From the NCBI RefSeq assembly GCF_039525035.1, contig NZ_BAAAHE010000007.1, positions 310,001-374,000 on the forward strand: a DNA stretch of 64,000 bases, given 5' to 3'. Origin of the DNA: Sporichthya brevicatena. Its GTDB lineage: Bacteria > Actinomycetota > Actinomycetes > Sporichthyales > Sporichthyaceae. The notes beneath the pieces are model-generated. The model ran no database searches and was not told where the DNA came from. It saw only the letters and a program-made list of their open reading frames with translations. The position numbers and the translations under genes were made by a program. Positions 12,260 through 60,343 of the stretch are shown piece after piece. Position 1 is the stretch's first letter. Every line of letters begins with the position of its first letter.

Positions 12260-13254
12260 GAAGTGCTCCCGGGGGCGGGCTCGGGCGGGGTGTCGACGAT
12301 GCGGCAGGCCAGGGCCTGACCGCGGGTACCGGGGACGGCGTGCGCGAACGTGACGTCCGCGGCCGTGACGACGAGGGGAGCGGCGGCGCGGTGGTTCAGT
12401 CGCAGCACGTCCCCGACGGCGAGTGAGACCAACGTGCGCGGGGTGAAGGTGGTGGGCGCGAACCCGACCGAGACCTCGATCGGGACCGCGGAGATCCGCT
12501 CCTCGACGCGGACGGGGACCGGCGTGGGCGTGGCCGCCCGCTGCGGGTCGGCGCCGGCGCCGATCGCCACCTCGAGGAGGGGGAACAGGCTCGCGAACGG
12601 CAGGCACAGCGTCGCGGGCGCCTCGGTCTCGCCGATGCGCAGGTCGAAGCCGGCGACGATCAGGACGTCCGCCGCGGCGGCGGCCTGGACGAACTGCGGG
12701 TTGTACTCGATGGCCGTGACGTCCGGCTCCATGCGGGCGATCGGCTCGAACGCGTAGCGGAGCTCGCCGAGGACGCGCGTCACGATCGTGCTCAGCAGGC
12801 CGACCTCGATGTCGGTGAGCGGGCGCTGCGGCTGCTCGCCGGTGCCCGGGCCGCCGAGGAGGCGGTCGACCGAGACCATCGCGCTGGTCATCGACAGCTC
12901 GAGGATCCCGGCGCCGGCCAGCGGCTCCACCGACAGGACGTTCACCATCGTCGGGTTGCTCAGCCGCGAGATGTACTCGTCGTAGGTGAGTTCCTCGATC
13001 GAGGCGACGTGGACGGTCGTCACCGTGCGCAGGCTGGACGTCATCAACGTCCCCCACTGCCGGGCGAACGTCTCGAACACGATCTCCAGGGATCGGACGT
13101 GCTTGCGCGAGAGCTTCGTCGACCGGCGGAAGTCGTACGCCCGCGGCTCCGTCCGCGACCCACGGCGATTCCGCCCGAGGGTCGTCACACCGAACTGCCC
13201 GTCTGCCACGGTGCTCTGTTCGGCAGCGGGCGGGTGGGCCTGAGCGAAACCCAC
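12256..13254 (-). CDS. fliM: FliM, flagellar motor switch protein
   Basis: Up to 332 aa. Core features: [28 protein letters not shown], the middle domain with [14 protein letters not shown], and a C-terminal SpoA domain ([20 protein letters not shown]). The start is uncertain. The GTG at 13254 lies inside a large palindrome with no clear ribosome site, while an in-frame GTG at 13209 is also possible. The usual N-terminal CheY-binding motif (LSQ.EID.L) is not apparent with either start. FliM binds CheY-P and sets rotation direction. Confidence 0.9.
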
Positions 13255-13315
13255 GAAAGCGCAGATCCGTACCGCAGATCGGTCCGATTTGCGTACCGAT
13301 CTGCGCTTTCGTGGG
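13250..13315. repeat. 66-bp near-perfect palindrome between fliL and fliM
   Basis: 23-bp outer arms (13250-13272 and 13293-13315, one mismatch; left arm begins CCCACGAAAGCGCAGATC) enclose a second smaller inverted repeat around GCAGATCGG/CCGATTTGC. Transcribed, it would form one long hairpin just before fliM. It could be a processing or attenuation site, or an inserted element. Confidence 0.8.
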
Positions 13316-17624: not shown

Positions 17625-18752
17625 CTACAGCTGCAGGTCGAGCGAACCGGCGGATGCCGGGGCGCCGGTGGGCGATCCGGCGTCTCCGTTCGGGGTGATG
17701 TCGTGCGGGACACGCCCGTCCCCGCCCGCCCAGGCGGGACGGGCGTGCCCGTTCTGGGGGTTGCCCGGGCCGGGCTGCGGCGCGCCACCGTCCCCGCCGA
17801 GCGAGAAGCTGCCCGTGCCGATGCCGGCCGCTTCGAGGGCGCGGCGCAGGTCGGGCAGGGCCGCGCGCAGGGCGTCGCGGGCGGCCTCGCTCTGGCCGGC
17901 GAGCCGGAGTTCGACCGTGCCGTCCCGAAGCTCGAGCTCCACCCGGACCGGGCCGAGCTCCTCGGGTGTGATGTCGACGGACAGGACGTGCGTCCCCTCC
18001 GCCCCGCGCTGGTGCACCGCGGTGATCGGGGCCGCGAGCTGCGCCGCCAGAGTCGGGGGCGCGGGGGTCGCGGACGCCGGCGCGGCCGCGGGGGCCACGG
18101 CCGAGGTGGCCGATGTGGGCGCAGCGGCCGGAGCCGCGCCGGCCGGGGTGACCCCGTCCGACTTCTCCGGCGCGCCGCGCCCTTCCCCGGCGGGGGATGG
18201 CCGCCCCGCGCCGGAGAAGTTGGGGTTGGGCTGCGGGTTCTGGGCGTCCGAGCCGCCGGCGGGGTCGGCGGGTCCCTCGGGCGGGGCGGCTTCGGCCCGG
18301 GTCGCGGGCGCGTCCGGGGCCTCCGGGGCCGCGGGTCCCGCGGCCGAGGTCATGTCCGCAGGCGCGGCGCGCCCGTCCGAGGCGGCCGCAAGGCGCGCCT
18401 CGCCGGGGTCGGTCGCCTCGACCGGCGCCGACGCCGCGGTCGCGCCCGGGGTGGCGGTCAGGGCCGGAGCCGGAACCGGGATCGCGGGGACGGCCCCCGC
18501 GGCGAGGGCCAACTCCTCCGGCGCGCCGCGGCCATCCGGGTCCGGGGAAAGGCGCGCCTCGCCGGAGAGGTGGGGGGTCGGCGTGCCGAGCAGGGCCGCG
18601 ACGAGGTCGGCGACCATCCCGGCGAACTCCTCGCCCGAGCCGGAGCCCGAGCCGGTGCCGGCGTCGGCGTCCGTCCCGGAGTCCGCGGCCGTGCGGACGG
18701 TGGTCGGCGCGGGAACGGGGACCGGGAGCGAACCGAGCGTGGGGATCGTCAT
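17625..18752 (-). CDS. fliK: FliK, hook-length control protein with in-frame palindromic repeats
   Basis: 375 aa. The N-terminal ~240 residues are Ala/Pro/Gly-rich and disordered, as expected for a molecular ruler. The C-terminal Flg_hook domain (~255-340) has LSVDITPEELGPVRVELELRDG and ARDALRAALPDLRRALEAAG, and contacts FlhB. Three repeats of the form SGEARLSP..DGRGAPEE occur in the ruler part, each encoded by a GC-rich palindromic block (18161-18220, ~18359-18410, 18513-18570). Such repeats would change ruler length. ATG overlaps the hydrolase stop. Confidence 0.85.
   Translation of the reverse strand: MTIPTLGSLPVPVPAPTTVRTAADSGTDADAGTGSGSGSGEEFAGMVADLVAALLGTPTPHLSGEARLSPDPDGRGAPEELALAAGAVPAIPVPAPALTATPGATAASAPVEATDPGEARLAAASDGRAAPADMTSAAGPAAPEAPDAPATRAEAAPPEGPADPAGGSDAQNPQPNPNFSGAGRPSPAGEGRGAPEKSDGVTPAGAAPAAAPTSATSAVAPAAAPASATPAPPTLAAQLAAPITAVHQRGAEGTHVLSVDITPEELGPVRVELELRDGTVELRLAGQSEAARDALRAALPDLRRALEAAGIGTGSFSLGGDGGAPQPGPGNPQNGHARPAWAGGDGRVPHDITPNGDAGSPTGAPASAGSLDLQL
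18161..18220. repeat. In-frame palindromic repeat in fliK, copy 1
   Basis: Perfect 14-bp arms ACTTCTCCGGCGCG (18161-18174) and their complement (18207-18220). It encodes the fliK peptide NFSGAGRPSPAGEGRGAPEK. Confidence 0.7.
18359..18410. repeat. In-frame palindromic repeat in fliK, copy 2
   Basis: Diverged relative of copies 1 and 3; encodes GEARLAAASDGRAAPADM. Shares CGCGCC-rich ends with copy 3. Confidence 0.5.
18513..18570. repeat. In-frame palindromic repeat in fliK, copy 3
   Basis: Ends CTCCTCCGGCG and CGCCGGAGAGG are near-complementary; encodes SGEARLSPDPDGRGAPEE. Same frame as copies 1 and 2. Confidence 0.6.
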
Positions 18753-28347: not shown

Positions 28348-28391
28348 AAAGGGTGACACCCCTTACTGCGCAGTAAGGGGTGTCACCCTTT
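28348..28391. terminator. Family B 44-bp palindromic bidirectional terminator, copy 1
   Basis: Perfect 44-bp palindrome; each half contains GGGTGACACCCCTTACTGC. It has A-rich DNA on the left and TTTCTTTT on the right, so both strands carry a U-tract. It lies between convergent genes ending at 28316 and 28426. Copies at 50928 and 60288. Confidence 0.85.
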
Positions 28392-36907: not shown

Positions 36908-36962
36908 GCGAGCAGGACTACCCGGTGCGTACGCCGCGATGCCCTGGACAAGAGATGTCATC

Positions 36963-37007
36963 TGCACAAGAGATGTCATCTGCATTGGAGATGACATCTC
37001 TTGTGCA
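36963..37007. repeat. Family A palindromes in inverted tandem (copies 5 and 6)
   Basis: 36981-37007 is a full 27-bp unit (arms TGCATTGGAGATG, A, CATCTCTTGTGCA). A reversed, truncated unit precedes it at 36963-36980, so the pair forms a larger palindrome. A third partial copy, GACAAGAGATGTCATCTGC, starts at 36947. It lies 6 bp past the CoA-transferase stop. Confidence 0.85.
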
Positions 37008-37012
37008 GGGGG

Positions 37013-50927: not shown

Positions 50928-50971
50928 AAAGGGTGACACCCCTTACTGCGCAGTAAGGGGTGTCACCCTTT
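50928..50971. terminator. Family B 44-bp palindromic bidirectional terminator, copy 2
   Basis: Same 44-bp sequence as copy 1, followed by a T-run on the right. Between convergent genes ending at 50831 and 50997. Confidence 0.85.
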
Positions 50972-58535: not shown

Positions 58536-60296
58536 ATGAGCGTCCTCACCGTTCTGGCCGGAGAGCCCGCGGAGCCGCTGCGGTCCGTGCTGGTCGCGAA
58601 CCGCGGCGAGATCGCGGTCCGGGTCCTGCGCGCCGCGCGGGACGCCGGGATGCGGGCGGTGGCGGTTCACACGGCCGCGGACGCCGGGGCGCTGCACGTG
58701 CGGCGGGCCGACGAGGCGCACGAGGTCGAGAGCTACCTCGACATCGCGTCCGTCGTCGCCGCCGCGCAGCGGGCCGGGGTCGACGCGGTCCATCCGGGTT
58801 ACGGGTTCCTCGCCGAGAACGCGGACTTCGCGGAGGCGGTCCGCGGGGCGGGGCTGGTGTGGATCGGCCCGCCGCCGGCGGTGATCCGGGACCTCGGCGA
58901 CAAGGTCACGGCCCGGCGGATCGCGCGGGACGCCGGGGTGCCGCTGCTGCCGGGCACCACGGCGCCGGTCGCCGACGCGGCGGCGGTCGAGGCCTTCGCC
59001 GCGGAGCACGGACTGCCGCTGGTGATCAAGGCGGCGTTCGGCGGTGGCGGCCGCGGGCTGAAGGTCGTGCGGACGGCGGCGGAGATCCCGGACGCCTTCG
59101 CCTCCGCCACCCGGGAGGCCGTTGCCGCGTTCGGGCGCGGGGAGTGCTTCGTCGAGCGCTTCCTGGACTCCGCCCGGCACGTCGAGGCCCAGGTGCTCGC
59201 CGACGACGACGGCCGGGTCGTCGTGGTCGGGCTGCGCGACTGCTCCGTCCAGCGGCGCAACCAGAAGCTCGTCGAGGAGGCGCCGGCGCCGGCGTTGCCC
59301 GCGGGGGTCGCGGCGCAGATCTCCGCGTCCGCGCGCGCCCTGTGCCGCGCCGCCGGCTACCGGAACGCGGGCACGGTGGAGTACCTCGTCGGCGCGGACG
59401 GGACCGTCGCGTTCCTCGAGGTGAACACGCGGCTGCAGGTCGAGCACCCCGTGACCGAGGAGACCACCGGCGTCGACCTCGTCGCCGAGCAGTTCCGGCT
59501 CGCCGCGGGCGGGCGCCTGGCGTCCGAGGACGACGTGCCGGCCCGCGGCCACGCCGTCGAGTTCCGCCTGATCGCCGAGGACCCGGCGCGGGGCTACCTG
59601 CCGGTGCCGGGGACCGTGACCCGCCTGGCCGTGCCGACCGGGCCCGGCGTCCGCCTCGACGCGGGCGTGGCGGACGGTGACGCCGTCGACCCGTCGTTCG
59701 ACTCGATGTTCGCGAAGCTGATCGTGAGCGCCCCCGACCGCGCCTCCGTCCTGCGCCGGGCCGCGCGGGTGCTGGCGGAGACTGAGGTCGCCGGCGTCCC
59801 GACGCCGCTCGCCGTGTACCGGCGGATCGTGCGGCACCCGGACTTCGCCGGCGCCGACCTGCGCGTCCACAACCGCTGGGTCGAGCAGGACCTCGGCGCC
59901 GAGGCCGACGCCGCCCCGGCCGACCCCGCCGTCGTGGGCGTGCGCGTCGGGCGGCGGGTGCTGCCGGTTCGCGTTCCCGGCCTCGCGGTCCTCGGTGACC
60001 GGGCCGCGGCGATCCGCTCCGAGGCCGCGGCGCTGCGCACCGCTGGCGCCGCCGTGGCCGACGGCCCCGACGTCCTCGCCCCGATGCAGGGGACGATCGT
60101 CGCCGTCGCGGTGAAGGACGGCGACCTCGTCGCGCCCGGCGACCTGATCGCGGTCTGCGAGGCGATGAAGATGGAGAACCCCGTCCGCGCCCACCGCGCC
60201 GGCGTCGTCACCGGCCTCACCGTCACCCCCGGCGCCCCCGTCGCCGCCGCCACCGTCCTGTGCACCCTCGCCGCCCCGGCGGAAAAGAAAGGGTGA
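58536..60296 (+). CDS. Biotin carboxylase/biotin carrier alpha subunit (AccA1-like)
   Basis: 586 aa. ATP-grasp biotin carboxylase with VANRGEIAVRVLRAARD, GYGFLAENADF, FGGGGRGLKVV, EVNTRLQVEHPVTE. After a shortened linker (~455-515) comes the biotinyl domain with Lys545 in CEAMKMEN. Pairs with the subunit at 52818, though separated by four genes. Its stop lies inside family B copy 3, which also supplies the last residues KKG. Confidence 0.9.
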   Translation: MSVLTVLAGEPAEPLRSVLVANRGEIAVRVLRAARDAGMRAVAVHTAADAGALHVRRADEAHEVESYLDIASVVAAAQRAGVDAVHPGYGFLAENADFAEAVRGAGLVWIGPPPAVIRDLGDKVTARRIARDAGVPLLPGTTAPVADAAAVEAFAAEHGLPLVIKAAFGGGGRGLKVVRTAAEIPDAFASATREAVAAFGRGECFVERFLDSARHVEAQVLADDDGRVVVVGLRDCSVQRRNQKLVEEAPAPALPAGVAAQISASARALCRAAGYRNAGTVEYLVGADGTVAFLEVNTRLQVEHPVTEETTGVDLVAEQFRLAAGGRLASEDDVPARGHAVEFRLIAEDPARGYLPVPGTVTRLAVPTGPGVRLDAGVADGDAVDPSFDSMFAKLIVSAPDRASVLRRAARVLAETEVAGVPTPLAVYRRIVRHPDFAGADLRVHNRWVEQDLGAEADAAPADPAVVGVRVGRRVLPVRVPGLAVLGDRAAAIRSEAAALRTAGAAVADGPDVLAPMQGTIVAVAVKDGDLVAPGDLIAVCEAMKMENPVRAHRAGVVTGLTVTPGAPVAAATVLCTLAAPAEKKG

Positions 60297-60331
60297 CACC
60301 CCTTACTCCGCAGTAAGGGGTGTCACCCTTT
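60288..60331. terminator. Family B palindrome, copy 3, overlapping the end of the carboxylase gene
   Basis: 44 bp, identical to copies 1 and 2 except ACTCCGC for ACTGCGC at the tip. The carboxylase stop codon (60294-60296) is within the left arm. It ends the acyl-CoA operon, followed by CTTTCTTC. Confidence 0.8.
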
Positions 60332-60343
60332 CTTCACACACTC

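Follow-up and report, generated by a model that had tools for sequence, protein, structure and literature searches.

An apparently undescribed 62-bp palindromic repeat family with in-frame copies in the fliK gene of Sporichthya brevicatena

REPs (repetitive extragenic palindromes) are described as 20-40 bp long and mostly intergenic, and in the families that have been diagrammed most of the convergent ones lie within 20 bp of both 3′ ends (PMC3733652). Some also lie inside genes, in pairs within the same gene or in a species where no other gene is affected (PMC3733652). The 62-bp units described here resemble them in being short, dispersed and mostly intergenic, in lying by gene 3′ ends or between convergent genes, in occurring both singly and in groups and, like the intragenic REPs of the GTAG/CGTC type (PMC3733652), in being occasionally located inside a gene. 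They differ in their length of 61-62 bp, which is outside the REP range, and in having no GTAG or CGTC tag at their ends, as judged by eye. Unlike RAYT-mobilised REPs, they number only tens of copies per genome, and no RAYT or Y1 transposase (Y1_Tnp, PF01797) was found in any of five genomes of the family Sporichthyaceae, while the same search was positive in 5 of 14 control genomes. In the broad sense of a dispersed intergenic palindrome near gene 3′ ends, the units are nevertheless REP-like.

Three further systems invite comparison. Rickettsia palindromic elements (RPEs) are palindromes read in frame as a protein segment, in a non-structured part of the products of assorted genes, according to the summary of Ogata 2000 cited in PMC2996958. 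The units in fliK are likewise in frame in two species, and no secondary structure is predicted over them in a structure model that is of low confidence throughout; set against the RPEs as that summary describes them, the coding copies found here, in the two fliK-bearing genomes, are confined to fliK instead of being spread over several unrelated genes. Palindromic amphipathic repeat coding elements (PARCELs) are also palindrome-like coding repeats, several per gene, but they are coding, amphipathic and distributed by transfer, whereas the 62-bp units are mainly extragenic and hydrophilic (PMC2996958). With MITEs (reviewed in PMC10969869) the units share small size, palindromic structure, the lack of an encoded enzyme and presence or absence between close species; they would differ in that no clear target-site duplication was seen at the near-empty sites and that half-sites, almost never found away from full units, gave no sign of a parent transposon with matching terminal repeats.

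The window, a stretch of 64,000 nucleotides from Sporichthya brevicatena (contig NZ_BAAAHE010000007.1; its genome is called G000 below), contains fliK between flgD on one side and an NlpC/P60 gene on the other (Table 1). The middle part of FliK carries all three units, two of them clear and one eroded, with the Flg_hook domain downstream of them in the protein, and the unit peptides FSGAGRPSPAGEGRGAPEK, GEARLAAASDGRAAPAD and LSGEARLSPDPDGRGAPEE share one frame and one orientation. In-frame palindromes had been proposed at these places in a sequence-only reading of the same DNA, with coordinates that proved correct, and the perfect 14-bp arms ascribed to the first copy are present at 18161-18174 and 18207-18220; five first-order Markov simulations of the window gave no exact 14-mer arm pair. 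Units 1 and 3 belong to the seed of the covariance model that scores them, and both align gaplessly to genomic copies. It is thus confirmed that the fliK units are in-frame copies of a 62-bp imperfect palindrome, each of about 21 aa if translated.

Table 1. The fliK gene and its palindromic units, in positions of the window.
Feature	Position	Strand	Evidence or remark
fliK, flagellar hook-length control protein, 375 aa	17625..18752	-	Pfam Flg_hook PF02120, E 2.9e-16, aa 249-322
Flg_hook (FliK C-terminal) domain match, aa 249-322	17787..18008	-	coordinates converted from aa positions
Palindromic unit 1, 62 bp, in frame in fliK, peptide NFSGAGRPSPAGEGRGAPEK	18160..18221	+	cmsearch 77.8 bits
Unit 2, eroded fliK copy, peptide GEARLAAASDGRAAPAD	18352..18410	+	cmsearch 24.4 bits, E 0.003
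Unit 3, in frame in fliK, peptide HLSGEARLSPDPDGRGAPEEL	18511..18572	+	cmsearch 75.8 bits

The fliK region matches other contigs of its own genome on both strands in blastn searches, and the matching sequences form a family. Seven copies were aligned without gaps over 62 columns, as were later 60 copies from four genomes, the unit length being 61-62 bp and the ends reading NNCTTCT...AGAAGNN. With the covariance model, 15 units were found in G000 and 41 in the complete genome G001 of the same genus (unique places, counted by hand from the list of matches). Further units were detected in G002, also of the same genus, and in genomes of the sister genus, and other members of the class gave only weak, background-like matches. 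A half-site pattern gave 20 and 75 matches as against 1 and 1 for its reversed control, and half-sites occur almost solely within or beside full units (one pattern, one mismatch). In the sister genus the hairpin of 61-62 bp is kept with changed arms, and paired changes between the genera exceed those in shuffles (123 cells vs 82; covariation 0.169 vs 0.116, reached in 0 of 500), although related subfamilies can also yield such paired changes without selection. Among Rfam families only microRNAs under their gathering scores were matched, which we take as chance, and the family consensus has no match to plasmids. The family appears to be undescribed, no report of it having been found in the open-licence literature, and it belongs to a flagellated lineage, actinobacterial by its FliI matches, in which no RAYT was detected.

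The placement of the units is strongly skewed. Intergenic positions account for 12 of the 15 G000 units and 38 of the 41 G001 units, the other three in each genome being those of fliK (genes were called with a simple finder based on codon usage and trained on the flagellar genes of the window); the units sampled in G002 and G004 are all intergenic. One unit of G001 (L054) was at first placed inside a gene; the start called for this gene appears to be wrong, the most likely one being downstream at MADYERLSYTV, which makes the unit intergenic, and the placement of one more unit was checked separately. Since coding regions make up about nine tenths of the sequence, this placement between genes amounts to a strong avoidance of them. 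In four genomes of the family, 27 of the 50 intergenic unit clusters lie between convergent genes, and where an adjacent 3′ end exists it is no more than 25 bp away in 36 of 47 clusters, with a median distance of 13 bp from cluster to nearest 3′ end. By the nucleotide model and a peptide search together, fliK is the sole coding host found in the two genomes: the units of fliK are the top matches of the peptide pattern, for which a search in other proteins had been suggested, and all further matches fall on these intergenic palindromes or are weak and single. The family thus consists of REP-like repeats that are also present in one gene, not of a coding-specialised element like the RPE; of the RPE likeness put forward in the sequence-only reading, the in-frame palindromes within a gene stand, and the specialisation for coding falls, the copies outside fliK being intergenic in both fliK-bearing genomes.

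The unit family is also dynamic, moving or being lost between two close species, with gain and loss unpolarised by an outgroup. At shared sites G000 and G001 are mostly 91-95% identical (88-95% overall), and several unit sites of G001 are near-empty in G000. Four single-unit sites differ by 58-66 bp, for example by 64 bp at L055/L172 and 66 bp at L053/L170, and two others differ in length by 91 and 101 bp; L057, where the alignment missed a unit, and L068, which was uninterpretable, were excluded from this comparison. The junctions of the near-empty sites are partly unclean, and no target-site duplication is evident at those compared. Arrays, in which units follow one another about every 75 bp with spacers of 12-14 bp in most cases, differ as well: one unit stands against four at L070/L060 and L010/L049, and one against two at L071/L052 and at each of the two places in L072/L065. 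Such differences between close species, in near-empty sites and arrays alike, should be useful for finding the mobilising mechanism. As a separate observation, an RtcB-family gene of G001 (L069, 2469-3839) sits between two 62-bp palindromes, and the orthologous place in the genome of the window is about 1.2 kb shorter.

The fliK genes of the two species offer a second comparison. FliK matches are absent from G002, G003 and G004, a FliK-based scan of genome contigs returned no relative, and a FliI scan matched solely more distant actinobacteria, so that the fliK comparison is one of two species. All three units, whose presence or absence in close strains had been suggested as a check, stand at orthologous places in G001 and therefore predate the species split, unless they were exchanged between the species. 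The DNA of unit 1 is identical in both, which could reflect constraint. Unit 2 shows 8 nonsynonymous and 1 synonymous codon changes among 17 codons and unit 3 the same numbers among 21, in contrast to 8 synonymous and 4 nonsynonymous among 85 codons in the C-terminal domain region; this is not the pattern of a conserved protein with free synonymous change, which would have spoken against palindromic elements, and the palindromic reading survives. The orthologue of unit 2 in G001 is an intact palindrome (fold z -6.1), whereas in the window strain its folding is not significant (z -1.1), and unit 3 falls from z -8.7 in G001 to -1.9. From these small numbers we read relaxed constraint on the protein, together with erosion of the palindrome in the lineage of the window. 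FliK has 375 aa in the window strain and 412 aa in G001, a difference that comes mainly from ruler indels between the units, whose number is constant at three. Two other readings of the comparison were set aside. Strong constraint had been considered for a run of 101 identical bp over unit 1, but 23 runs of at least 100 bp occur in 46 kb compared between the genomes; intragenic duplication had been considered for units 2 and 3 of G001, which are mutual nearest matches at 56/62, but the family median for the nearest match is 55/62.

Taken together, these results make it probable that the three units in fliK represent coding copies of a REP-like palindrome of 62 bp that is dispersed and specific to the family, and that they are tolerated as a ruler spacer. 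A candidate trans-acting mechanism (no Y1/RAYT having been found) and recombination would spread and amplify the units, and insertions in coding sequence would normally be removed. In-frame copies may have been acceptable in the presumably disordered FliK ruler, since in the frame concerned the palindrome seldom contains a stop and encodes a hydrophilic linker, which would read xFSGxARPSxxxDGRxxPEK. Among intergenic copies, 94-98% are stop-free for two frames and 63% for the third; two usually stop-free frames would make survival in frame easier. The units would now be mainly a tolerated spacer of up to about 21 aa each, decaying in the window strain. Against this explanation, neither a mobilising enzyme nor a target-site duplication was found, and it would be odd for randomly tolerated insertion to have left three copies in fliK when no other gene was found to carry any.

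It has to be considered whether selection acts on the DNA or RNA hairpin as such, both in fliK and at the other sites, be it as a protein-binding site, as a stabiliser of mRNA 3′ ends or as a bidirectional attenuator; the copies in fliK would then influence expression within the flagellar operon. The closeness of the clusters to gene 3′ ends, the persistence of pairing between genera through changes in both arms, and unit 1, which folds at -52 kcal/mol (z -5.8) and is unchanged between the species, are all consistent with such selection. No T-tract was seen after the hairpins inspected, however, a genome contains only tens of copies, the window strain has lost the pairing of unit 2 and retains a weaker one in unit 3, and a neutral palindromic repeat with subfamilies would give paired changes too, so that selection on the hairpin seems doubtful.

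Tolerated copies may matter for the protein. In Salmonella, the hook grows by 0.2 nm per residue inserted into FliK (PMC6126814), and by arithmetic from these data 3 x 21 aa would correspond to about 12-13 nm of hook, or about 4 nm per unit; by this analogy an effect of the units on hook length is plausible, and fliK would be a compact case in which a normally extragenic repeat is read as protein where added residues have a measurable physical effect, the length of the hook. That the units are a selected ruler module, kept in frame to set the length of FliK and the hook and adaptive in copy number, is a stronger statement and an unlikely one. It would accommodate three copies in the same frame of one gene, the unchanged unit 1 and the variable copy number of family arrays elsewhere, but the two genomes compared, the only ones with a fliK match, both have three copies at orthologous sites, the difference in FliK length arises mainly outside the units and unit 2 is decaying in the window strain; the earlier suggestion that copy number tunes hook length thus finds no comparative support as yet. 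Quite unlikely, too, is a version in which the FliK ruler alone repeatedly captured an extragenic mobile palindrome as a length module, and in which its arrays, with a period near 75 bp (25 codons), could change copy number in fliK as they do elsewhere. Finally, a chance resemblance of repeated Ala/Pro/Gly-rich ruler peptides to palindromes in a 72% GC genome, suggested by the low complexity of the ruler and by weak blastn matches of the region to other GC-rich sequence, is refuted by the gapless 62-column alignment with genomic sites and by the excess of half-sites over the reversed control.

Other palindromes were noticed in the window. One, AAAGGGTGACACCCCTTACT-N4-reverse complement, is found at 28348-28391, 50928-50971 and 60285-60334, and its A- and T-rich ends resemble those of a bidirectional terminator. 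G000 contains 170 copies of the 19-mer arm of this palindrome (86 forward, 84 reverse) and G001 contains 131, corresponding to roughly 85 and 65 hairpins, respectively. Another repeated palindromic motif, with GAGATGTCATCT, lies at 36948-37008, and at L178 an intergenic block of this motif is expanded relative to G001. At 13250-13315 a hairpin with exact 18-bp arms (CCCACGAAAGCGCAGATC) is located between two genes.
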